Shown: positions 4,456 to 23,903 of the stretch, one piece after another
How the letters are laid out: every line of letters starts with the position of its first letter
Position numbering within the stretch: the first letter of the stretch is position 1
Source of the DNA: a virus
IMG/VR virus record: IMGVR_UViG_3300034118_000632
Span: 1 to 32,875 of that record
Direction: 5' to 3' (one strand)
Length of the DNA stretch: 32,875 nucleotides
The notes under the pieces: model-generated
The model's input: only the letters and a program-made list of their open reading frames with translations
The model's database searches: none
Told to the model about the DNA's origin: nothing
Translations under genes and position numbers: made by a program

Positions 4456-4527
4456 GCAGTTTTTCGATTTACGAAACACTGCCAGCGGTTGGCGTTTTTC
4501 GTTGACCCTGGCGAAACAGGAATCAAC
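4456..4527 (+). promoter_or_regulatory. Structured 5' leader of the major capsid gene
   Basis: Three inverted repeats lie in the 169 bases before the capsid ATG. (a) An 11-bp stem with one mismatch, 4456-4466 with 4472-4482, loop ATTTA. (b) A short stem GCCA...TGGC (4481-4484 with 4491-4494) followed by G and five T, terminator-like and sharing two bases with the first stem. (c) GTTGA/TCAAC (4501-4505 with 4523-4527) enclosing CCTG/CAGG (4507-4510 with 4517-4520), which covers the AGGA Shine-Dalgarno at 4518-4521. Hairpins (a) and (b) overlap and could compete. The rest of 4362-4455 shows nothing clear to me. Confidence 0.45.
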
Positions 4528-4530
4528 GAA

Positions 4531-5976
4531 ATGACACTTAAGGAATTGCAGGCAAAGCGTCAATCCCTGCTAGATGACGCTCAGAAGATCATTGACGCTG
4601 CTGGCGATCAGATGATGTCCGACGAAGACGCAGTGAAAGTGAAGGCTTCAATGGATGAAGTCGACACCGTCTCAGCGTCAATCGACGACCTCGCCAAAAA
4701 GGCAAATGAGCAGACTGAGTTGCGAAACAAACTGCACGCTGCCAAGAGCAAGCCGGATAACCCAACGATCCGAGCCATGTTCAGTCAGTTTGGTGGCACA
4801 ATGGCACCTTCGCTGCCGCATGTCGGCAATGGCGTCTCTCAGCTTCCGCGCAATGTGAAGCGATCTGCCGTCAAGAACTTCAAAGGCGAAGTTGATGGCA
4901 TGGAAGCTCAGGTTCGAGCGTACCGATTCGGCATGTGGGCCATGGCCACTCTGTCGCAGCAGTCAGGCGGCCGGTTCCGCAATCAGCAGGCCGTGAACTA
5001 CTGCCTCGAAAACGGGCTGATCACCAACGCAGCGCACGGCGAAGGTGGATCCGATGCCACCGGTTCACACATTTTCGTGCCAGACGAATTCGGAACTGAC
5101 CTGATTCTGTTGCGCGAACAGTTTGGCGTGGCTCGCCGGCTGCTCAACATCGTGCCGATGTCCTCAGACACGAAAACAGAACCTCGCCAGTTGTCGGGAC
5201 TGACTGCTTACTTCGTTGGTGAGAATTCAGCCGGCACCGAATCGACCATGAGCTTTGACGATGTCACTTTGGTGGCCCGCAAACTGATGGTTCTCGCTCG
5301 CCTGTCGAACGAACTGAATGCCGATGCTGCAATCAGCTTTGGCGACAAGCTAGTCGGTGAAATCGCCTACGCCTTTGCCAATAAGGAAGACGAGTGTGTG
5401 TTCAACGGCACCGGAACAAGCACTTACGGCCACATCACCGGCATCCGCACTCGGCTGGATGAACTGACGGCCGGAACGGCTCCGGGGCTCACTCTCGGAG
5501 CAGGTAACGCCTATGCTGAACTGACGCTCGCCAACTTCCAGAGCGTTGTGGGTTCGCTTCCGCAGTACGCAGACCGTCCGGGTGCTGGTTGGGTGTGTCA
5601 CAAGACGTTCGCTCACACAGTCATGCAGCGGTTGGCATTGGCGGCCGGTGGATCAACGGCAACGGAAATCATCAACGGCATCCCGACGCTGATGTTCCTT
5701 GGCTATCCAGTCACGATCAGCCAAGTGTTTCCATCTGTGGAAGCAAACAGTCAAATCCCCGTCATCTTCGGTGACTTGTCACTGGGAGCCATGTTTGGAG
5801 ACCGTGGACAGGAAACAATCGCATTCTCCACTGAGGCAACCGTCGGCGGTGAGTCCATGTGGGAACGGGATCAGATCGGCGTCCGCGGCACGGAGCGTTT
5901 CGACGCTGTTGTGCATGACTACGGCAGCAACTCTGTCGCCGGCCCGATCGTGGGCTTGGAAATGGCTGGCAGCTAA
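4531..5976 (+). CDS. Major capsid protein, HK97 fold, with N-terminal delta domain
   Basis: Builds the icosahedral shell. The 481-aa product starts with a charged helical coiled-coil region (about residues 1-75, beginning MTLKELQAKRQSLLDD), the delta or scaffold domain normally cut off by the prohead protease. It is followed by an HK97-like body including GGSDATGSHIFVPDEFGTDL, the E-loop and central region, and a C-terminal segment ending in DAVVHDYGSNSVAGPIVGLEMAGS. The start ATG at 4531 has AGGA nine bases upstream; an upstream in-frame TTG at 4489 lies inside the leader hairpins and is less likely. Position after the protease supports the call. Confidence 0.93.
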   Translation: MTLKELQAKRQSLLDDAQKIIDAAGDQMMSDEDAVKVKASMDEVDTVSASIDDLAKKANEQTELRNKLHAAKSKPDNPTIRAMFSQFGGTMAPSLPHVGNGVSQLPRNVKRSAVKNFKGEVDGMEAQVRAYRFGMWAMATLSQQSGGRFRNQQAVNYCLENGLITNAAHGEGGSDATGSHIFVPDEFGTDLILLREQFGVARRLLNIVPMSSDTKTEPRQLSGLTAYFVGENSAGTESTMSFDDVTLVARKLMVLARLSNELNADAAISFGDKLVGEIAYAFANKEDECVFNGTGTSTYGHITGIRTRLDELTAGTAPGLTLGAGNAYAELTLANFQSVVGSLPQYADRPGAGWVCHKTFAHTVMQRLALAAGGSTATEIINGIPTLMFLGYPVTISQVFPSVEANSQIPVIFGDLSLGAMFGDRGQETIAFSTEATVGGESMWERDQIGVRGTERFDAVVHDYGSNSVAGPIVGLEMAGS

Positions 5977-6056: not shown

Positions 6057-6479
6057 ATGATTCGAGAACGATTGGTGAATGACTCGCTGCTGATCTCTCC
6101 GCGATCGCAAACGAACACGCAGACGAATACAGCAAATCTTGACACCAAGGGGGCAAACTACGCCACCATTCGTGTCGCGTTTGCCAGTGAGCTGAACACG
6201 AACGCCGTTGGGCCTACGCTTGTTCTGTCACATTCTGACGACACGGTAGTGACGAATTTTGCAACGCTTGACACACAAACAGGCTTGGATTTGACTGCCG
6301 CGCGTGAAGTGCATTACGGCGTCGACCTGCGAGGCAAAAAGCGATACCTGCGACTGGCCGTCACCACAGCAACTGCGACCAACGACAATGTCACGTTTGC
6401 CGCAGTGGCAACACTCAGCGACCTCGAGAATTCTCCGAACGGAACGACCAGTGTGGCTGACACGACAGTGTTTGTGTAA
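6057..6479 (+). CDS. Small structural protein, possible capsid decoration protein
   Basis: Unrecognised 140-aa protein encoded directly behind the major capsid gene, with a good Shine-Dalgarno (AAAGGGGAAA) before ATG 6057. The sequence is rich in Thr, Asn, Asp and beta-prone segments (VGPTLVLSHSDD, YLRLAVTTATATNDNVTFAAV) and has no cysteine, signal peptide or membrane segment. This pattern and position resemble small beta-rich decoration or head-fibre proteins of other phages, but no motif proves it. It may share an mRNA with the capsid gene through the weak hairpin at 6000-6022. Its stop overlaps the next start (TAATG). Confidence 0.5.
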   Translation: MIRERLVNDSLLISPRSQTNTQTNTANLDTKGANYATIRVAFASELNTNAVGPTLVLSHSDDTVVTNFATLDTQTGLDLTAAREVHYGVDLRGKKRYLRLAVTTATATNDNVTFAAVATLSDLENSPNGTTSVADTTVFV

Positions 6480-7069
6480 TGAGCGGAAGCACGATCAATT
6501 ACGAGGCTGTCGCACCTTGGATGCAAGGGAAAGCCTTTAACGTCTACACACAATTTGGTGAGGACGGATTGATCGCGTTTGCGCTTGATAAAATTGGACC
6601 GAAAAACCGTCACTGCTTTGAAATTGGAGCAGCTGACGGTCGGTTCTTTTCCAATACATTACGACTTCGCGAACTTGGCTGGTATGCGGTGCTGATTGAG
6701 GCCGACCAGCGGCACTTTAACAAACTGCAGGCTGAATTCGGGCAGCAGTCAGCGTGCATTTTCGGAACGTGCGGTGACCTGGATGACATGCTCATTCGAA
6801 CCACAATCAACCGCACGCCTGACCTCGGAATTATCGACATTGACGGACAGGACTATTGGCTTTGGCACGACATGGTTGAAATCAGGCCGCGAGTCATGCT
6901 CGTGGAAATCAGCACGCAGGGCCGATCAATGCCAGTTCCTTTGCGTGGCGAGCCATACCCGGCACAGGCCGGACTTGAACAAATAACGCAGCTTGGAGCC
7001 TCAAAAGGTTACACGCTCGTCGCAACAACTTACTGCAACGCTCTTTTTATAGAAAACTCATGTCTCTGA
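6479..7069 (+). CDS. FkbM-like SAM-dependent methyltransferase
   Basis: Probable class I methyltransferase of 196 aa. It shows an SAM-binding motif I (HCFEIGAADGRFFSNT, about residues 41-56), an acidic ribose-binding motif II (VLIEAD) and IIDIDGQDYWLW. The latter resembles the IDIDGNDYW motif in FkbM-related enzymes often encoded beside glycosyltransferases; these commonly O-methylate sugars. It is inserted between the capsid and connector genes, an unusual place for an enzyme, and overlaps the methyltransferase-glycosyltransferase gene by 10 bases, so the two are probably co-translated and act together. Substrate unknown: a virion glycan or a host surface sugar are the obvious options. Confidence 0.65.
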   Translation: MSGSTINYEAVAPWMQGKAFNVYTQFGEDGLIAFALDKIGPKNRHCFEIGAADGRFFSNTLRLRELGWYAVLIEADQRHFNKLQAEFGQQSACIFGTCGDLDDMLIRTTINRTPDLGIIDIDGQDYWLWHDMVEIRPRVMLVEISTQGRSMPVPLRGEPYPAQAGLEQITQLGASKGYTLVATTYCNALFIENSCL

Positions 7070-8187
7070 AACTGAACATCGGTGCTGGCTCAACTGTTAT
7101 TCCCGGATTCACCCCGATCGACCGCAAGTTCGGTTCGGAGGCGTTTCCGTTGCAGTACGCCGACAATTCCGTGGATGAGATCAGAGCCTCGCACATCCTC
7201 GAGCACTTCAGCTTTGCGGACGCCCAGGAAGCCCTAAAGGAATGGACGCGAGTTCTGAAGCCCGGCGGACGTATTCGGCTGGCGGTTCCAGACATTGAGG
7301 CGAAGGAAAAGGCAGATCCGGACGAGTGGCCATTTATTATCATGGGCGGACAAACTGACGACAACGACTTTCATAAATCAGCATGGAACGAAACACGCCT
7401 ACGGGCTCACATGGAGCACTTCGGACTGCAAAGCGTCAAGCGATGGGAATCGCCAAACACAGACACGGCGGCTCATCCATGCTCATTGAATTTAGAGGGC
7501 GTGAAGCCAGCGGCAGCCGCCAAGAAAGCATTGACCGTAAAAGTCGGTGCGTATTTGACTCTTCCGCGTTACGAAGCGGTCGCAGCCAGAACGATCATTG
7601 AGCAAGCTTTGAAGCCACATAAGATTGACCTCACGACAACGCAAGGCGTGTTCTGGGGCCAGTGTATGCAACGCATGTTTCAAGACGCTGTCGACAAAAA
7701 CATCGACTGGATTCTGTCACTGGATTCAGACAGCCTTTTTAATCAAAAGCATATTTCCGATTTGTTCGCGCTGTTTGCGGCGAATCCACAGATCGACGCT
7801 TTGGCAGCTTTGCAGTGTCGACGCGGCGGAAAGTATCCGCTGATGACGACTGGCACCGGCGTGCAGGATGAACACGTACAAGTCGACGGCCGGCCGATCA
7901 AGGCGACAACGGCTCATTTTGGCCTCACGCTCATTCGCGTCAATTCATTGCGTGATGTGAAGAAGCCATGGTTCTGGTCGCAGCATGATGAAAGCGGCAA
8001 CTGGTCAGATAACAAGCTCGATGATGATATTTGGTTCTGGCATCAGTGGCGACTGGCCGGCAAGACGATTTACGTGGCTCCTTCAGTGTCGATCGGGCAT
8101 CTAGAAGAAACAGTTGCGATGTTCGATTCAGACTTGCAACCCAAGCACATCTACGTGCATGAATGGCGAAAGGAAAACGGGCTGTGA
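7060..8187 (+). CDS. Methyltransferase-glycosyltransferase fusion protein
   Basis: Two-domain enzyme of 375 aa. Residues 1-145 form a class I methyltransferase: KLNIGAG (motif I), IDRKFGSEAFPL, ADNSVDEIRASHILEHF and LKPGGRIRLAVPDI. After a short Ala/Lys linker, residues about 155-375 look like a GT-A glycosyltransferase: VGAYLTLPRYEA, a DXD-type SLDSDSLF for metal and nucleotide-sugar binding, and a C-terminal LDDDIWFWHQW and GKTIYVAPSVSIGHLE. The methyltransferase core begins at residue 4, which supports the ATG at 7060 despite no clear Shine-Dalgarno. The fusion suggests coupled sugar transfer and methylation on one acceptor; the acceptor is not known. Confidence 0.7.
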   Translation: MSLKLNIGAGSTVIPGFTPIDRKFGSEAFPLQYADNSVDEIRASHILEHFSFADAQEALKEWTRVLKPGGRIRLAVPDIEAKEKADPDEWPFIIMGGQTDDNDFHKSAWNETRLRAHMEHFGLQSVKRWESPNTDTAAHPCSLNLEGVKPAAAAKKALTVKVGAYLTLPRYEAVAARTIIEQALKPHKIDLTTTQGVFWGQCMQRMFQDAVDKNIDWILSLDSDSLFNQKHISDLFALFAANPQIDALAALQCRRGGKYPLMTTGTGVQDEHVQVDGRPIKATTAHFGLTLIRVNSLRDVKKPWFWSQHDESGNWSDNKLDDDIWFWHQWRLAGKTIYVAPSVSIGHLEETVAMFDSDLQPKHIYVHEWRKENGL

Positions 8188-8390
8188 TTGTCTTACTTAA
8201 ACCGTGGAACGGGCTGCCAGTCGGCTTCGTAAACACGGTGATCGGACGGGGGCCAGCGGCAGAACTGGTCAGACGCGGGATTGCTCGATGGTCAAACGAA
8301 TTTGAGAACGAGGACTCGAAATGCACCCAAGCCCAACCTTCAAAACGACCACGGGGCCGACCATCGAGCCCCTCACGCTCGACGAACTGA
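8184..8390 (+). CDS. Small head-region protein with AT-hook-like C-terminus
   Basis: Unrecognised 68-aa protein. A GTG start at 8184 overlaps the upstream stop (GTGA) and has AGGA at 8171-8174, nine bases upstream. The N-terminal half (MIVLLKPWNGLPVGF, then GRGPAAELVRRGIARW) looks like a folded domain. The C-terminal half is basic with KRPRGRPSSPSR, resembling an AT-hook (RGRP core). The last 70 bases overlap the start of the connector gene in another frame, so this tail is constrained by the other protein and could be fortuitous. The frame is open from the upstream gene and the start is well formed, so I think it is real. Confidence 0.6.
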   Translation: MIVLLKPWNGLPVGFVNTVIGRGPAAELVRRGIARWSNEFENEDSKCTQAQPSKRPRGRPSSPSRSTN

Positions 8391-8905
8391 AAACACGTCT
8401 TCGCATCACAACGTGCCACTTCGACACGGAACTGCAAGACCTGCTGAAGTCCGCACGAACAACAATTGAAAGTGAATGTTATCGACGGCTGATCACGCAG
8501 ACGGTGGAAATGCACATTCAGGACTTTCCTGGCACCTATGGCGACATTGAAATCCGGATGGCTCCGATTCAGTCCATCGCGCACATCAAGTATTATGATC
8601 AAGACGACACGCTGACGACGTTCGATTCGGCAAAGTATTACACCGACCTGACAAGCGTGCCTCCGCGAATCGTGTTGAAGGAATCACAGAGCTGGCCCAT
8701 CACACAGGAGGAGCGGCCAAACAAAGTCGTCATCACCATGCAGGCGGGATACGGTGCAACGGCAGCCAGTGTTCCTCCGGCAGCGAGACTGGCAATCGTG
8801 GAGTATTGCCGAACGCATCGCGATGGCTGCGAAGGATCGAATGCACGCTACAAGGCGTTGGTGTCTGAACTGCAATGGACGGCGTTTCATAAGGTCTGGG
8901 CATGA
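8321..8905 (+). CDS. Head-tail connector, gp6-like
   Basis: Adaptor that docks under the portal and starts the neck. The 194-aa sequence has the family pattern: EPLTLDELKTRLRI near the N-terminus, DTELQDLLKSARTTIESECYRRLITQTVE, then an RMAPIQSIAHIKYYDQDD beta region, and ITMQAGYGATAASVPPAARLAIVEYCRTHRDG near the end. This pattern is typical of phage gp6-like/phiE125 gp8-like connectors. The ATG at 8321 has GAGGA nine bases upstream. The 3' end overlaps the next gene by ATGA. Position in the head-to-tail order fits. Confidence 0.9.
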   Translation: MHPSPTFKTTTGPTIEPLTLDELKTRLRITTCHFDTELQDLLKSARTTIESECYRRLITQTVEMHIQDFPGTYGDIEIRMAPIQSIAHIKYYDQDDTLTTFDSAKYYTDLTSVPPRIVLKESQSWPITQEERPNKVVITMQAGYGATAASVPPAARLAIVEYCRTHRDGCEGSNARYKALVSELQWTAFHKVWA

Positions 8906-9249
8906 AACACGACTGCCAAACACGCGACAAACTCGTTCGCATTGAAAAACTGATCGGGCAAACCGCGGACGCTCACGGCCAGATTGATCAGACAACAAAT
9001 GCAAACTGGGGGCAGCACTGTTCAGCCTGGTGTTGGGTAGTCAGTAAAGGCGGCCGGGAGTTCTGGAAGGTGCAGCAAACAAATGCAGATGTGTCGCATG
9101 TTTGGAAAGCGGACTGGACGCCGGAATTAGCTGACGCATTACCTGCCATGCGGCTGATTCACGAGGGCAACACATACGAGATTCTGAGTGTGATCGACAT
9201 TGATTTGAATCACATGGAAATCGAGATTCAGACAAAGCGAGCGGTGTGA
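8902..9249 (+). CDS. Head-closure (head-tail joining) protein
   Basis: Stopper that seals the DNA-filled head before tail attachment (SPP1 gp16-like, Phage_H_T_join family). The 115-aa protein has the usual small beta-barrel pattern: WCWVVSKGGREFWKVQQ, DVSHVWKADWTPEL, AMRLIHEGNTYEILSVIDID and a final strand with IEIQTKR. The motif order (H.W..DWTP, then MR..H.G..YEI.SV.D.D) matches family members. It overlaps its neighbours by 4 bases each side, indicating translational coupling in the neck-gene cluster. Confidence 0.85.
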   Translation: MKHDCQTRDKLVRIEKLIGQTADAHGQIDQTTNANWGQHCSAWCWVVSKGGREFWKVQQTNADVSHVWKADWTPELADALPAMRLIHEGNTYEILSVIDIDLNHMEIEIQTKRAV

Positions 9250-9746: not shown

Positions 9747-10144
9747 AAAGCGGATTGGTTTCACTTCTGACGGGCGAAGCGACGGTGTCTGCAATTTGCA
9801 GCAGCCGAGTGTATGTCAATCGCGCCCCGCAGAATGCAATCTTTCCTCATGTAATCATCACGCAAATGGGCAGCGAAGAAAACGCAACGTTGGATGGAGC
9901 CAGTGGCCAATTGCGATTTATCGACTTTGATATTGATTGCAAAGCCAAGTCATCCGTACAGGCCGAGAGCTTAGCAAACGCTGTTAGAGTATTCATCGAC
10001 GACTACAGCGGAACAGCGGGCAGCTTCACAATCGGGGCCGTTTTAATGAATGATGAATCAGACGATTATGAGCCTCCTCAAGATGGCTCAGATGTTGGTG
10101 TGTTCGTGGTCACTCTGGATCTGACGGTCCATTACAACACTTGA
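9743..10144 (+). CDS. Tail terminator, DUF3168-like
   Basis: Likely hexameric ring that caps the tail tube and sets the head-tail interface. The 133-aa protein contains ICSSRVYVNRAPQNAIFPHVII, the typical run of DUF3168 proteins (secretion of a strand-turn-Pro-hydrophobic pattern), and ends VFVVTLDLTVHYN. In between is AESLANAVRVFIDDYSG, a conserved helix of the family. It overlaps the gp10-like gene by 4 bases. Family assignment is from motif recognition and gene order. Confidence 0.8.
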   Translation: MKSGLVSLLTGEATVSAICSSRVYVNRAPQNAIFPHVIITQMGSEENATLDGASGQLRFIDFDIDCKAKSSVQAESLANAVRVFIDDYSGTAGSFTIGAVLMNDESDDYEPPQDGSDVGVFVVTLDLTVHYNT

Positions 10145-10157
10145 AGGGGCCTGAGAA

Positions 10158-10595
10158 ATGGCGAAGTTAAAAGTAAAAGGAACTGTGTTATCGTTGGGGT
10201 CTGGTACGACATACACGCCAGTCGCGCAGGTGCGATCATTTGGCGTCGATGGTCTCGAAACAGAAACCTACGACAGCCGGACACTGGATGGAACGGCCGG
10301 AGTCGAATACGACCCAACAGGCTACGTGGAAGGCGGATCAACTACCTTTGAACTGCTTCACGATCCTGCTTTGGCGGGACACCAGAATATTCACGACTTA
10401 GTGACATCGGCTTGCTTGAATACCAACGGCACGGCAAACAAGACCAACTGGAAAATCATTTTTGCCAATACCGCATCCACAGAAATGACGATGGTTGCCG
10501 CCGGCGTAGGATTTTCGATCACTGGAGAGGCTTCATCCGGATTGGCGGCATCCGTTACGCTTAAGCACGATGGCTGCCCCGTCCTCCCTACTTAA
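10158..10595 (+). CDS. Tail tube (major tail) protein
   Basis: Forms the stacked rings of the tail tube. The 145-aa protein is beta-rich with the pattern of siphovirus tube proteins: TVLSLGSGTTYTPVAQVRSFGVDGLETETYDSRTLDG at residues 9-45, YVEGGSTTFELLHDPALAGHQNIHDL, and a C-terminal FSITGEASSGLAASVTLKHDG. The pattern 'vag..si.g..... tyd.t....g...' is common in this family. Upstream GGGGCCTGAGAA before ATG 10158 provides a modest ribosome site. The gene lies right before the tail chaperone and tape measure genes. Confidence 0.85.
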   Translation: MAKLKVKGTVLSLGSGTTYTPVAQVRSFGVDGLETETYDSRTLDGTAGVEYDPTGYVEGGSTTFELLHDPALAGHQNIHDLVTSACLNTNGTANKTNWKIIFANTASTEMTMVAAGVGFSITGEASSGLAASVTLKHDGCPVLPT

Positions 10596-10607
10596 TGAGG
10601 TGTTGAC

Positions 10608-10928
10608 GTGAAGTGCTTAACGAACAGAGATATTGACGCTGACGTAAACTGTTTTCCGAAATACGTCAGCGAAACCGCGGTCGGCAAAAAGGTAATTAAG
10701 GCGGGAACCATTATTTGTCGCGATGAGTTTTCACTGGCTGATTGCGTGTCGTTGGTGCTTAATGGATTAGCCACGCCAGCCGATGAGGAATGTCGCAATG
10801 CGTGCAATCGATCAGAGGCACAAATCATGGCAGCCAAGGCAGCAATGGACCGGCTGTTAAGCGGCAAAGGAATGGCTGAAGATAAGGAAGAGGAAGACGA
10901 AAACGAAAACGAGGAGGATGACGAGTGA
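10608..10928 (+). CDS. Unknown acidic small tail-region protein
   Basis: Not recognised, 106 aa. GTG start at 10608 with GAGGTG 8 bases upstream. Residues 1-75 contain four or five cysteines and look folded; the tail beyond residue 85 is extremely acidic (a run of Glu/Asp/Asn). It sits between tube and chaperone genes, where small acidic proteins may act in tube assembly. It overlaps the chaperone start by ATGA. Confidence 0.55.
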   Translation: MKCLTNRDIDADVNCFPKYVSETAVGKKVIKAGTIICRDEFSLADCVSLVLNGLATPADEECRNACNRSEAQIMAAKAAMDRLLSGKGMAEDKEEEDENENEEDDE

Positions 10929-11323
10929 CGCGGTCGGTAGTTTCGGCAGAAGAGTTTCTAACATCACCAGCACTGGAACGCCAAAAAATTGACGTTCCTG
11001 TTCCGGAACTCGGAGAGGGTAAAGTCATCCCGGTTTGGGGAATGACACCTCGCGAGCGGACGGAATTCGATGATCGTCAGGCTCGGTTGTCGAAGGCGCA
11101 ACGAGCAAAGCAAAAGACAGAGATCCGGGAGCGAATCCTAGTTGAATGCTGCCGGAATGATGACGGCGTGAAACTATTTACCTTTGACCAGATCGCAACA
11201 CTCGGGCAGCGTCGAGGGGATGTTGTCGAACGACTTGTCAACGTTGCTTTGGATCTATCCGGATTCACCGGACAGGATTTGGAGGCCCTCACAAAAAACT
11301 CAGAAGAAGCCATCGAAGGCTAA
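10925..11323 (+). CDS. Tail assembly chaperone, short form (gpG-like)
   Basis: Functional analogue of lambda gpG, which binds the tape measure protein and recruits tube subunits. The 132-aa product has VPVPELGEGKVIPVWGMTPRERTEF, common to chaperone proteins of this class, then a helical region and a final LDLSGFTGQDLEALTKNSEEAIEG. The last codons include ACA AAA AAC, giving a zero-frame A AAA AAC slippery heptamer at 11293-11299; slippage continues into the overlapping -1 frame. Position before the tape measure gene is characteristic. Confidence 0.85.
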   Translation: MTRSVVSAEEFLTSPALERQKIDVPVPELGEGKVIPVWGMTPRERTEFDDRQARLSKAQRAKQKTEIRERILVECCRNDDGVKLFTFDQIATLGQRRGDVVERLVNVALDLSGFTGQDLEALTKNSEEAIEG

Positions 11324-16014: not shown

Positions 16015-16166
16015 TGTTACGACTGATCGGCGTTTTGTTTCTGGCTGTTGTCGCACAGTTTATTGTGCATGGATGGTCCGAGTTTGCGGCAGCCAGCGGA
16101 GATCATGCAGTGCAGTTATGGAAAAATGACCTCGCCCGATTAGCGGAGAAGGCTGGCCGTGAGTGA
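16014..16166 (+). CDS. Small membrane protein (50 aa), possible holin-like
   Basis: Short gene starting at ATG 16014 that overlaps the Cys-rich gene stop (TGATG) and runs to TGA 16166. The product begins MLRLIGVLFLAVVAQFIVHG, a hydrophobic segment of about 18 residues, then a polar helical part with Lys, Arg, Glu. It is a one-pass membrane or secreted protein. At this position in the genome such a protein could be a holin or spanin-like lysis factor, but there is no endolysin next to it, so I do not claim that. It overlaps the next gene by 8 bases. Confidence 0.5.
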   Translation: MLRLIGVLFLAVVAQFIVHGWSEFAAASGDHAVQLWKNDLARLAEKAGRE

Positions 16167-17406
16167 CTGTCAGTGCGAACTGTCTGGATTTTGCAGCGTG
16201 CGAAACGTCGCATTGAAGGTGACGCACCAGATGATTTGCCGGGAAAACAAGCCGCGAATTGACGCGATGCTGGCAGGTCAAAAGTGGGTCAATCCGCAGG
16301 CAAAGAAGGCTCCGCAGCGCAAGCCATGTAACACGGCGAAGCGTGGGCGATGCACCGACTGCTCCGACGCTGGCACACTCATGATGGCAGCGATTCAAGC
16401 TGACACGGGTCAGCCTGTTTCGTGCGGGAGTTGCAAGACCTACCTGTTGTCACTCAATCGCATGTCCGCACACGATCATGCGGCCATCGTCCAGAAACTC
16501 TACGCGGAAATCTCATGGCCTCCATCATGGCGAGCTAAACACGGTGATAAAGAAGGCCAGCGAAAACGGATCGGTGAAATCGTTTCGAGTGCTTTGGCAG
16601 TAGCCACGACGACTTGCGCAACGACGAGGCCAAAGCCAGCCCGCAGAGCAGTAGTACAAAAAAACATTCCGGCGGTCAGCAGGCAACCGCTGGCTCAGAT
16701 TACGCCAAGGCCATTCACTGAAAAGCCACGACTAACTCTGATTTTTCACTGCTGGCCGAATGGTGAAGGATGGAAGCGTCACGTTGATTATCTCCGGCCA
16801 GTCAGCGGAGTGTTCGACCGAAAGATAATGGGGGTCGCAACTGGGCCGGGCACGGCAACGCTGGCCGAAGTCCGGGCTGCGTTCGGAGACTCGTGGGAAT
16901 ACCTCGCAGTTAAGAACGACAAATCGCTGCGGGAGGTTGTGACCTATCGCACAATGCTGGAAATGGTGCGGTCAACAGACATAAACGATGTTACGTTTTG
17001 CTTGCACTCAAAGGGAGCACAAAGCCATACGGCTGCGAGTCGGCAAATCCAGTGGTGGACTGAGGCGATGTATTCGACAGTTGTCCACAACTGGCAGAAC
17101 GTGCTCAGCAAAATGGAGCAAGGCTATCCCGTAGTGGGTTCGTTTTTGCGAGTCGGTAAACACCTGCAGGCCCGCTATGGCTGGCATTTTTCAGGGACGT
17201 TCTACGCATTTCGAAATGCCGTAGCGTTTCAAAATGGCGCGCCTGGCTTTGCCAGTAACTTCTACGGCACGGAATCATGGCCGGGGCATCATTTCGCGAG
17301 GCATGAAGCAGCCTGCATGTTTGCTGAAAACTGCGGAGACATCTACAAAGAAAACCCGCAATTGGAATTGGAACTTAACGAGTGGAGACGACTGAATGAA
17401 ACTTGA
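16159..17406 (+). CDS. Cys-rich zinc-binding-like domain plus glycosyltransferase-like domain
   Basis: Unusual 415-aa two-part protein. Residues 1-105 hold about ten cysteines: C4, C6, C12, C27, then PCNTAKRGRCTDC and SCGSCKTYLLSLN; this looks like one or more zinc-binding modules. After a Pro/Arg/Lys-rich linker (about 145-190), residues 190-410 resemble a glycan-related transferase: LTLIFHCWPNGEGWKRH, FCLHSKGAQSH, WWTEAMYSTVVHNW, and YGTESWPGHHFARHEA. The C-terminal half reads like rhamnan-synthesis/GT-type enzymes seen in other bacterial surface loci, but I cannot name a family. GTG start at 16159. It is followed by methyltransferase and dioxygenase genes, suggesting a modification cassette. 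Confidence 0.5.
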   Translation: MSDCQCELSGFCSVRNVALKVTHQMICRENKPRIDAMLAGQKWVNPQAKKAPQRKPCNTAKRGRCTDCSDAGTLMMAAIQADTGQPVSCGSCKTYLLSLNRMSAHDHAAIVQKLYAEISWPPSWRAKHGDKEGQRKRIGEIVSSALAVATTTCATTRPKPARRAVVQKNIPAVSRQPLAQITPRPFTEKPRLTLIFHCWPNGEGWKRHVDYLRPVSGVFDRKIMGVATGPGTATLAEVRAAFGDSWEYLAVKNDKSLREVVTYRTMLEMVRSTDINDVTFCLHSKGAQSHTAASRQIQWWTEAMYSTVVHNWQNVLSKMEQGYPVVGSFLRVGKHLQARYGWHFSGTFYAFRNAVAFQNGAPGFASNFYGTESWPGHHFARHEAACMFAENCGDIYKENPQLELELNEWRRLNET

Positions 17407-17923
17407 AATCGGCGGCGGAAATGATTTTGCGAGAGGCGACGGTTGGACCAACATGGACCAACTGCCGGGGGCGGACATTCAGCACGATCTGAACGTAAGA
17501 CCGTGGCCACTGTCCGACGACAGCGTTGACGCAATTTACACGTCGCATTGCATTGAGCACGTTCAATGCCCGATCAGCTTTCTGCATGAGTGTGCTCGAA
17601 TCGGCAAGGTCGGATGCACGGTTGAAATCCGTTGTCCAAGTCCTTATTCAGACCTCGCAATGGTCGCGGGGCACGTGTCCGTTTTTTCTCCGCAAGCCGC
17701 GCGAAACATGGACGTGCATTTTCCGAGACTATTTTGGAAAGACAAGAAACGCCCTCGGCTTGTGTCCTGGCATTTCGGAGCAAATGAGCGTCTGCATGAG
17801 GCGAAGCAGGAGCTGCCGTTTCTCAAGGGCCTCTCCGATCACCTGATCATGAAATACATTCCGGGTTGTGCTCACGAAACAGTTTTTCAGTACGTCATTC
17901 AGGCCAATGAATATGCCAGCTAA
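17396..17923 (+). CDS. SAM-dependent methyltransferase, type 11-like
   Basis: Class I methyltransferase of 175 aa: KLEIGGGNDF at the N-terminus (motif I), WTNMDQLPGADIQHDL (acidic residue for SAM), LSDDSVDAIYTSHCIEHV (post-motif) and a C-terminal region VEIRCPSPYSDLA, MDVHFPRLFW. The enzyme core begins at residue 2, supporting the ATG start at 17396, which overlaps the preceding gene by 11 bases. It resembles the N-terminal domain of the 7060-8187 fusion in motif order. A partner for the GT-like protein is likely; target unknown. Confidence 0.7.
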   Translation: MKLEIGGGNDFARGDGWTNMDQLPGADIQHDLNVRPWPLSDDSVDAIYTSHCIEHVQCPISFLHECARIGKVGCTVEIRCPSPYSDLAMVAGHVSVFSPQAARNMDVHFPRLFWKDKKRPRLVSWHFGANERLHEAKQELPFLKGLSDHLIMKYIPGCAHETVFQYVIQANEYAS

Positions 17924-18470
17924 GGTGATCGAAAACGTAATTCCTCGTTCGCTTGTCCTCGCCGCTGAGGCGGCATGGCCATCGCCTGAATGGCCCTATT
18001 GGCACCGCTACAACGGAGCGACCGCAAACAAATACGGATCAATGGATCGCAGCCGAATTCCTCCAGCCTGCATTGCGGCTCTCGATGCGCTGGCGTTGGC
18101 GGTCGCAGATCAAATCGGGGATTCCTTTATCGACTACGATCTGCACGCGGCTGGAATGCACATGATGCCTCCAGGTGGATTTCTCGGAAGACATCTTGAC
18201 GCTGAGTGTCACCCGATCAGGCCGTGGAAAAGAACTCACTCGATCGTGCTGTCGCTGAACGAAACCATGGGCGGCAATCTCATCCTTGAGGGCATCGGCA
18301 AGTTTTCACCGGAGCCAGGGAGAGTAATTGTGTTCGAGACGGCTAGCCAGTGGCATGAGGTCACGCAAGTAGCGGCTGACTCGCAGTGGCGCAAAACGCT
18401 GGCCCTGTTCGCATGGCAGATTGACCACAATTGCGACGGCAGGACATCTGCGAACTTTCAGAAGTCATAG
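17907..18470 (+). CDS. 2-oxoglutarate/Fe(II)-dependent dioxygenase
   Basis: Probable prolyl-hydroxylase-like oxygenase, 187 aa from ATG 17907. It has the iron ligands H96-x-D98 (GRHLDAE), distal H150 (QWHEV), and R162 (WRKTLALFAW) for 2-oxoglutarate, in the right order and spacing for the double-stranded beta-helix fold; THSIVLSLN, GGNLILEGIG and EPGRVIVFETAS are strands of that core. Such enzymes hydroxylate protein side chains, sugars or nucleic-acid bases. The start overlaps the methyltransferase gene end by 17 bases (ATG 17913 is an alternative). Location next to transferases suggests it creates the acceptor hydroxyl; that is inference. Confidence 0.75.
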   Translation: MNMPAKVIENVIPRSLVLAAEAAWPSPEWPYWHRYNGATANKYGSMDRSRIPPACIAALDALALAVADQIGDSFIDYDLHAAGMHMMPPGGFLGRHLDAECHPIRPWKRTHSIVLSLNETMGGNLILEGIGKFSPEPGRVIVFETASQWHEVTQVAADSQWRKTLALFAWQIDHNCDGRTSANFQKS

Positions 18471-20267: not shown

Positions 20268-20459
20268 GGCAGATCGTTTTTGTCCGGCCCGCTGTCAACG
20301 GCGGCGGGCGAATCTGCCTCAGAGCCTGCTGCATTGAAAAATGATTTTCAACGGCTGGCCCCCGCAAGCCAATGAAGGCGCGGCAGGCTCTGAATTTGTT
20401 ATCCCTGTGAACAGTCCGCCAGCGGTGGCGTTTACGGTCGTCAATGGCTGTTCACAGGG
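20268..20459 (+). repeat. Three tandem palindromes upstream of csrA
   Basis: Palindrome 1: 20268-20274 with 20312-20318 (7 bp), inside it GCCCGC 20287-20292 with GCGGGC 20304-20309. Palindrome 2: 20320-20329 with 20383-20392, a perfect 10 bp, inside it TTGAAAA/TTTTCAA near 20334-20350. Palindrome 3: 20403-20414 with 20448-20459, a perfect 12 bp, followed by a T5 tract 20462-20466, so it looks like a terminator, or an attenuator before the CsrA gene. The 258-base gap 20230-20487 holds no convincing gene. Confidence 0.6.
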
Positions 20460-20487
20460 TGTTTTTCTCTCAATGAAAGGACTTCAA

Positions 20488-20757
20488 ATGCTAGTGCTCA
20501 GACGGGCTGTTTCGGAAGAGATCATTATCACGGTCGGCGAAGAAACGATCGTCGTCAAGCTGGTTGACACAATCGGAACTAATCACGCACGGCTCGGCTT
20601 CACCGCATCAAAGAACGTGCGGATTGATCGCAAGGAAATTCACGACGCCATTCAGGAAACTGGCTTTAACCCGGAGGCGTTTCCAATCGCTCCGCTCGTG
20701 CCAGTGATTCGAATCGGCGATCGTCTTCCGGGCGAACTCATGCGGAGGAAAGTGTAA
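20488..20757 (+). CDS. csrA: CsrA-family RNA-binding regulator
   Basis: RNA-binding protein that normally represses or activates translation by binding GGA motifs near ribosome sites. The 89-aa protein shows MLVLRRAVSEEIIITV at the start, the VxLVDTIGTNHARLGFTA core and NVRIDRKEIHDAI, the signature of CsrA, including the conserved R6 and the R of DRKEI (R48) that contact RNA. A family member is usually about 60 residues; here a 35-residue extension follows. ATG 20488 has AAGGA (20476-20480), which is itself a CsrA-type GGA site, so autoregulation is possible. An open frame continuing upstream through the palindromes is rejected as a longer start. Confidence 0.85.
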   Translation: MLVLRRAVSEEIIITVGEETIVVKLVDTIGTNHARLGFTASKNVRIDRKEIHDAIQETGFNPEAFPIAPLVPVIRIGDRLPGELMRRKV

Positions 20758-21008
20758 TGACACGACGCAAGAAAGCCGGGAAGAAATCCAACAGGCTGCA
20801 CGCTTCAGTCGATCGCAAGCCAATGACGCGAGATCCATCATTAGAAGAGATTTGGGGCACTGAAGCAACTATCGGACTGGCGGAATCGATCCGCATGGAA
20901 CGGCCTGATCTTCCAGAGGACAAAGGCTTGTATCGGCCGTCACAGATTCGTGAGTGTTCGACGCAAATGCTTCCAAGTGGCAGCGGCGTTTTGAGGGGGC
21001 AGGGATGA
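20757..21008 (+). CDS. Small protein, copy 1 of a duplicated module
   Basis: Unrecognised 83-aa protein. The first 20 residues are basic (TRRKKAGKKSNRLHASVDRK); the rest, from KPMTRDPSLEEIWGTE on, including IRMERPDLPEDKGLYRPSQI and RECSTQMLPSGSGVLRGQG, is nearly the same as the C-terminal part of the product at 23439-23903 (53 of 63 residues). The DPSLEEIW segment is a common opening of small phage proteins. It overlaps csrA by one base and RusA by four. No catalytic motif. Confidence 0.55.
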   Translation: MTRRKKAGKKSNRLHASVDRKPMTRDPSLEEIWGTEATIGLAESIRMERPDLPEDKGLYRPSQIRECSTQMLPSGSGVLRGQG

Positions 21009-23245: not shown

Positions 23246-23442
23246 CCAAACGCAAAACACGATTTCACGACGAATGGTTTGCGGTCTATGGCTACGAAAT
23301 GCCTGCTCACGTGGAACGATTGCCGATCGGGCAGATTCAGGAAGCGATTGACTTTGGCAGGAAGAAACACAGGCCGGTGACAGAGACAAGCGGCAATGAT
23401 GATTCGATGGTCTTTGAGGATAACCACAACAATTTGACATGA
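23242..23442 (+). CDS. Unknown small protein (66 aa)
   Basis: Unrecognised. MTKRKTRFHDEWFAVYGYEM with PAHVERLPIGQIQEAIDFGRKK, then an acidic tail. The segment 'P..hveRLPi.qI.eAi' has loose resemblance to a segment of the 68-aa product at 26621 (PEEIRRLPLKKICKAVM), suggesting a small shared domain. Overlaps its neighbours by 4 bases each side. Confidence 0.45.
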   Translation: MTKRKTRFHDEWFAVYGYEMPAHVERLPIGQIQEAIDFGRKKHRPVTETSGNDDSMVFEDNHNNLT

Positions 23443-23903
23443 CACGAATAGCCACAGATAACCACATGCACGAATTACTCGAACAAATTGCAGCGATGCC
23501 GCTTGCCCAGAAAGTGGCGGCTATTAACGACCTAAAGCGAATGATTCACGATGTGAGCCCATTTAAGGACGAACCTGTCGATTGCGTGCTGTGGATCGCA
23601 TCGGAAAACATCACGGCAAACGAGTACAACCCCAACAAGGTCGCGCCGCCAGAGATGGAATTGCTGGAGGTGTCAATCGTCAATGACGGCTACACGCAGC
23701 CGACAGGTCACAAGCCAATGACGCGAGATCCATCGCTCGAAGAAATCTGGGGCACGGAAACAACGATCGGGCTGGCAGAAATGATCCGATTGGAACGGCC
23801 TGATCTTCCACAGAATAAGGGGCTACATCGGCCTTCACAGATTCGGCAGTGTTCAACGCGGATGCTTCCAGGCGGTCGCGGCGTTTTGAGGGGGCAGGGA
23901 TGA
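23439..23903 (+). CDS. ParB-like N-terminal remnant fused to a duplicated module
   Basis: A 154-aa chimera. Residues 40-90 look like the start of a ParB/Srx-type nuclease domain (VDCVLWIASENITANEYNPNKVAPPEMELLEVSI, ending NDGYTQP). But the following core that carries the conserved GFHR/K region is missing; instead residues 91-154 continue as a second copy of the DPSLEEIW module (KPMTRDPSLEEIWGTETTIG). So it looks like a deletion-fusion or domain swap. ATG 23439 overlaps the previous stop. The ParB part cannot be catalytic as it stands. Confidence 0.6.
   Translation: MTRIATDNHMHELLEQIAAMPLAQKVAAINDLKRMIHDVSPFKDEPVDCVLWIASENITANEYNPNKVAPPEMELLEVSIVNDGYTQPTGHKPMTRDPSLEEIWGTETTIGLAEMIRLERPDLPQNKGLHRPSQIRQCSTRMLPGGRGVLRGQG

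Follow-up and report, generated by a model that had tools for sequence, protein, structure and literature searches.

A putative virion-glycosylation cassette with a constant glycosyltransferase and an exchangeable enzyme slot in the head module of uncultured tailed phages

Described systems and the locus

As a rule, phage virions are considered to be unglycosylated, mycobacteriophages being among a few exceptions (PMC11256854). Among the latter, Che8 and Corndog glycosylate both capsid and tail tube by glycosyltransferases (GTs) of their own, which shields the particles from antibodies (PMC12363180); the enzymes are given as Che8 gp110 and Corndog gp38 (Freeman et al. 2023, through PMC12363180 and PMC11256854). 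In an archaeal virus of the Turriviridae, Sulfolobus turreted icosahedral virus (STIV), the GT A197 is described as essential and as possibly glycosylating the glycosylated capsid protein B345 (PMC10551542). Here we describe two enzyme genes, an FkbM-like methyltransferase and a methyltransferase-glycosyltransferase fusion (MT-GT), in the head module of an IMG/VR virus record of 32,875 bases (the window, that is, the whole stretch analysed). We propose, with a probability of about 0.72, that this cassette pairs a constant GT with tailoring enzymes that can be exchanged, and that it glycosylates a virion protein of the phage itself, most likely the cement or the capsid protein. Such a function would be of a known kind; the arrangement, a constant GT with an exchangeable slot in the interval between cement and neck genes, is new.

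Each precedent resembles the locus only in part. STIV A197 is a viral GT-A enzyme, the closest solved structure to the window GT and a proposed modifier of its virus's own capsid protein (PMC10551542); however, it is a stand-alone GT from an unrelated kind of virus, shares 13% identity with the window enzyme, and has no fused methyltransferase or exchange slot in the text available. The mycobacteriophages are likewise tailed phages with their own GTs acting on capsid and tail tube, but the GT genes of the F1 phage Maravista lie near the 3' end of the genome rather than between cement and neck, and tblastn found no full-length relative of the window MT-GT among INPHARED phages. The collagen hydroxylysine GTs (LH3, COLGALT1 and mimivirus R699) are protein-directed and give the next-best folds (Z 14.8-17.9), whereas their identity is 8-18%, they come from eukaryotes or a giant virus, and a match in fold does not imply a shared acceptor.

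The left half of the window is a standard head-to-tail module, running through TerS, TerL, portal, ClpP-like protease, HK97-type major capsid protein (MCP), a 140-aa protein, the FkbM-like enzyme, the MT-GT and a 75-aa protein to connector, head closure, gp10-like, tail tube and tape measure genes. The part of interest comprises:

4489..5976, + strand: HK97-fold MCP (Pfam Phage_capsid 6.7e-34, phrog_10 6.6e-55); candidate acceptor
6057..6479, + strand: putative 140-aa cement/decoration protein, a Thr-rich beta-sandwich (phrog_5707); candidate acceptor
6479..7069, + strand: predicted FkbM-like S-adenosylmethionine (SAM) methyltransferase, 196 aa, in a variable tailoring slot (PF05050 matches of relatives, conserved alignment)
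7060..8187, + strand: MT-GT, 375 aa (profile, model, residue conservation)
8163..8390, + strand: small protein of the head module, 75 aa, its gene overlapping those of MT-GT and connector, with homologues in the same place in most contigs
8321..8905, + strand: gp6-like head-tail connector (phrog_442 9.4e-21)
8902..9249, + strand: head-closure protein (Phage_HCP, Pfam 1.7e-11)

The cement stop and the FkbM-like start meet at 6479, and overlaps follow between the FkbM-like gene and MT-GT (7060-7069), MT-GT and the 75-aa gene (8163-8187), and the 75-aa and connector genes (8321-8390). No sigma-70-like promoter or terminator match was found on the + strand inside the capsid-to-neck gene run, and the sole + strand terminator-like hairpin (4480-4494) lies immediately 5' of the capsid gene; since the TTG start at 4489 falls within it, ATG 4531 is the likelier MCP start. 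The overlaps and the lack of internal promoter or terminator matches thus point to co-expression of the cassette with the capsid genes. A search against Rfam gave no match in the window.

Fold, conserved position and distribution of the fusion enzyme

The fusion proposed in the first-pass annotation proved real, as the MT-GT carries a Methyltransf_11 match above cut-off (aa 28-72, 2.5e-8) and its model, built with 30 relatives, is confident and two-domained (mean per-residue model confidence, pLDDT, 88.7). Its predicted parts are:

7060..7509, + strand: predicted class I SAM methyltransferase domain, aa 1-150 (Methyltransf_11 2.5e-8; 3dli Z 14.1)
7531..8187, + strand: predicted GT-A glycosyltransferase domain, aa 158-375 (2c0n STIV A197 Z 18.5, LH3 17.9, mimivirus R699 17.1)
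7723..7731, + strand: DXD motif D222-S-D224 (both Asp 100% in 163 sequences)
8020..8028, + strand: D321-D-D323, predicted catalytic or ED-like motif (D321 and D323 99% conserved)
8098..8100, + strand: H347, predicted metal ligand (GH; 99% conserved)

In the model the GT-A fold spans aa ~158-351 and aligns best with STIV A197 over 161 residues at 2.5 A, with B4GALNT1, COLGALT1, Mnn9 and SpsA among the further matches. The DXD site of this domain, given as SDSL in the first-pass annotation, is D222-S-D224; for D321/D323 and H347 we presume the roles that such residues have in other GT-A enzymes. In an alignment of 163 distinct relatives, D222, D224, H286, F287, G288 and T290 in the GT half and G8, E48, H49, P77, G96 and H105 in the methyltransferase half are 100% conserved, with H45 at 99-100% and G10 of the GxG SAM-binding loop at 97%. 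Sugar transfer is the activity predicted for the GT half and SAM-dependent methylation that predicted for the other. Where it could be computed, dN/dS of the MT-GT is ~0.06-0.07 (a rough figure because synonymous sites are near saturation) and pN/pS is 0.16-0.19, indicating purifying selection.

Relatives were fetched with four queries (MT-GT, FkbM, cement and MCP); the counts below are of contigs retrieved by similarity, the best 80 per scan, many of them fragmentary, and contigs are labelled L plus a number. Nearly all close relatives have these genes in the order MCP–cement–[FkbM]–MT-GT–75 aa–connector. At least 165 distinct full MT-GTs (113 clusters at 90% identity, 28 at 50%) have a cement gene upstream, the MCP lies within 400 nt of the cement gene in 159 of 162 cases, and in 108 of 146 there is an overlap between the MT-GT and the head gene that follows it. 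Thus, while both enzyme genes do sit on the + strand between the capsid/140-aa and neck genes (6479-7069 and 7060-8187), as first annotated, the view that they were inserted into the head module does not hold, this position being standard across a large group of uncultured phages.

The GT is not universal. It is present in 94 of 96 cement-retrieved contigs with room to tell (one of the two exceptions, L271, starts an MT-GT at the contig end) and in 53 of 64 MCP-retrieved contigs with such room, the fairest sample, and its presence changes at least 7 times on the MCP tree. L356 and L364 have the 75-aa and connector genes immediately after the cement gene, which means that a head can be built without the cassette. 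A GT lacking the methyltransferase half occupies the same position in L297, L307, L309 and L310, and two MT-GT genes stand within one head region in L237 and L383. L321 (6554-7933) and L330 (6183-7547) have no GT profile match; their slot is taken by a protein of ~455 aa that combines a methyltransferase domain of another type with a C-terminal half of no recognised family, possibly an analogous enzyme.

Nucleotide and protein searches of INPHARED gave no more than a partial match at 21% to an uncultured record and, in S-SM2, weak matches confined to FkbM. Of the best 80 matches in genome contigs, only L111 is full length, the others covering essentially the methyltransferase half; L111 is a 14-kb contig of a metagenome-assembled genome (MAG) with TerL, portal, MCP, cement and neck genes. 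A host origin of the MT-GT was considered and rejected, as its only full-length match there carries these phage head genes. A GT profile run against 777 genomes of two bacterial groups, 385 of the class of L111 and 392 of the Planctomycete phylum of L130 (a Fimbriiglobus MAG), found the phage-like L111 and nothing in the other 776, a result that is weak for the 392 genomes because that search had no positive control. These searches suggest that the MT-GT family is, as far as searched, phage-borne and uncultured. No paper describing the cassette was found within the openly licensed literature.

The exchangeable slot between cement gene and fusion enzyme

The interval occupied in the window by the 196-aa gene is empty in 98 of 165 relatives and holds an FkbM gene in 48. 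The first-pass label of FkbM-like stands on the relatives: 14 of 21 match PF05050, at E values up to 1 (best 7e-4), and L101 has a clear FkbM domain, matching at 1.8e-17, fused to its MT-GT, whereas the window protein itself falls below detection, with no Pfam or PHROG match. Nothing convincing came from running the FkbM, cement and GT profiles against PDB sequences.

Elsewhere the slot contains other enzymes. PAPS sulfotransferases account for 8 counted rows, two of which are the paired MT-GTs of L383, and L104 has FkbM plus a sulfotransferase. GDP-mannose 4,6-dehydratase fills the slot in L111, L240 and L279, in the last followed directly by an epimerase at the position of a GDP-fucose synthase; it is also found in L271, whose contig ends within the MT-GT, and downstream of the MT-GT in L281. 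In L380 the slot holds a cytidylyltransferase-like protein. Profile matches range from 4e-115 to 4e-143 for GDP_Man_Dehyd and reach down to 4e-11 for Sulfotransfer_1. On a 111-row MT-GT tree, a quick one weakly supported in places, there were at least 22 changes of slot content and at least 11 in the presence of FkbM.

The domains themselves have also been rearranged. The GT precedes the methyltransferase in L104 (8042-9361) and in one L383 copy (9795-11171), and the two domains are thus shuffled as units; three-part FkbM-MT-GT fusions occur in L101 (6183-7955) and L378 (5132-7177, 681 aa). Slot exchange, GT-only versions and reshuffled fusions together argue that the GT is the constant part and that the rest tailors. 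Judged by their profiles, the nameable slot enzymes would make, methylate or sulfate sugars, and with this chemistry what looked like two odd enzymes becomes a plausible glycan pathway. GDP-fucose or GDP-6-deoxy sugars are the donors predicted for the GTs of L279 and L111.

The likely acceptor and competing targets

Considering this gene content, we envisage that during late expression the GT-A domain would take a sugar from its nucleotide-sugar donor and attach it, in the cytoplasm, to a structural protein encoded in the same operon, and that the fused methyltransferase and the FkbM-like enzyme would O-methylate the transferred sugar or its donor. In other phages a sulfotransferase, sugar-nucleotide synthesis enzymes or nothing would take the place of FkbM. 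Because slot contents vary, core sugar transfer would be fixed and the outer chemistry exchanged, as expected of a surface coat under diversifying ecological pressure; and since the GT is kept in the same spot while its accessory enzymes are swapped, these phages probably decorate their own capsid with a modified sugar.

The neighbouring Thr/Asn-rich 140-aa protein has roughly an even chance of being the acceptor. It is all-beta in a model of moderate confidence (pLDDT 74) that matches the cement protein Bbp16 of Bordetella phage BPP-1 (3j4u_H: Z 9.3, 106 aa, 17% identity) and a Carin1 capsid chain (8cjz: TM 0.52, 23% identity), and one relative reaches Pfam Bbp16 at 2.1e-4. The BPP-1 protein is likewise 140 aa, an outer-capsid jellyroll with an externally exposed C-terminus, and the available part of PMC3863775 mentions no glycosylation of it. 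As p24/TMED GOLD domains and birnavirus VP2 head the PDB structure matches, the likeness to BPP-1 rests also on position and Pfam; other beta-sandwiches score comparably (Z 9-12), so the 140-aa protein is likely, though not proven, to be a cement protein, a reading that its fixed place after the MCP supports. The MCP itself is a more doubtful acceptor.

Several observations weigh against a virion-protein target, or at least against the cement protein as that target. Threonine richness was rejected as evidence for the cement protein as non-specific, given that the tail tube is equally rich (14.0% vs 14.6%; MCP 7.3%) and the cement protein is not singled out. Cement proteins with a GT partner contain 6.5% Asn vs 3.2% in those without (raw p 1.5e-6), yet the enrichment agrees in only 4 of 5 phylogenetically independent pairs (sign test p 0.125), which makes it a lead and not evidence, and C-terminal Ser/Thr of the cement protein does not differ with or without a GT partner. 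Further, no INPHARED isolate carries the cassette, some phages have an empty slot and 11 of 64 MCP relatives lack the GT, so the GT is not essential to capsid building. Finally, adjacency alone leaves room for another target.

The best-surviving of the alternatives, though unlikely, is that the cassette modifies another late protein, such as the tail tube, a tail fibre or the 75-aa protein of the head module. Mycobacteriophage GTs do modify the tail tube besides the capsid (PMC12363180), the window tail tube is Thr-rich, and the 75-aa gene lies immediately 3' of the MT-GT in most contigs; against this, cement and MCP are the tightest conserved neighbours and the tail module is several genes away.

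We consider it improbable that the enzymes alter a host surface polysaccharide, in the manner of superinfection exclusion or serotype conversion, their place in the late operon being a matter of expression alone. Phage GTs and methyltransferases often modify O-antigen, and GDP-mannose dehydratase and sulfotransferase are polysaccharide enzymes too. However, the cassette proteins have no membrane segment (top 19-residue hydropathy 1.21 and 0.82), the cassette has no GtrA/GtrB-like flippase or lipid-linked GT, and no Gtr-type multi-pass membrane GT or flippase occurs among the head-module genes. Moreover, the position is tied to MCP and cement and is not a moron site, the GT family is absent from the sampled bacterial genomes, and late, capsid-time expression would be ill suited to exclusion. 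We also looked for homology to enzymes that modify the host surface and found none.

Glycosylation of phage DNA bases is very improbable: such GTs are known (Pyle 2024, cited in PMC12619734) and the window encodes a 2-oxoglutarate-Fe(II) (2OG-Fe(II)) oxygenase at 17868-18470, but the genes scanned included no recognisable hydroxymethylase or base-hypermodification gene, the oxygenase belongs to a separate tail-region trio seen only in the window among the relatives searched, the GTs nearest in fold act on proteins, polysaccharides and lipids, and the cassette travels with cement, not replication genes.

Cumulatively, the first-pass proposal that the enzymes act on a co-made virion protein is supported in part: it is strengthened by conserved adjacency to MCP and cement, the gene overlaps without internal promoter or terminator match, the lack of membrane or flippase parts, STIV A197 as nearest structure and the exchange of glycan-tailoring enzymes, while the choice between cement and capsid stays as it was in that annotation.

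Other features of the window deserve mention. A second modification-like trio of mutually overlapping genes in the tail region (16159-18470) encodes a 415-aa protein that matched neither Pfam nor PDB, together with a class I methyltransferase (17396-17923) and the 2OG-Fe(II) oxygenase; relatives of the 415-aa protein occur in the tail region of L013, L058 and L061, and no close relatives of the other two were found among the loci searched. A ~60-residue stretch (KPMTRDPSLEEIWGTE..IGLAE) is present twice (20757-21008 and 23439-23903), each copy directly preceding a nuclease-like gene (RusA at 20954; an HNH-like motif at 23849). A CsrA-like regulator gene lies at 20341-20757 (Pfam 1.5e-10).

What virion glycosylation might offer environmental phages is a matter for guesswork: it may protect them against surface-binding, proteases or grazers, or help them to adhere to a substrate. 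More tentatively, and at somewhat less than even odds, a large uncultured lineage of tailed phages may have capsid glycosylation as a near-core trait, with a fixed GT acting on cement and a hot-swap slot for methyl, sulfate or 6-deoxyhexose chemistry. If true, the capsid glycan would differ from phage to phage, making it a bacteriophage counterpart of variable surface glycan coats. The cassette helps to annotate methyltransferase and glycosyltransferase genes in head modules that are now unexplained; if our proposal is right, it would also serve as a test system and toolkit for cement- or capsid-directed glycosylation in bacteria, and sugar-coated heads would be common among environmental phages.
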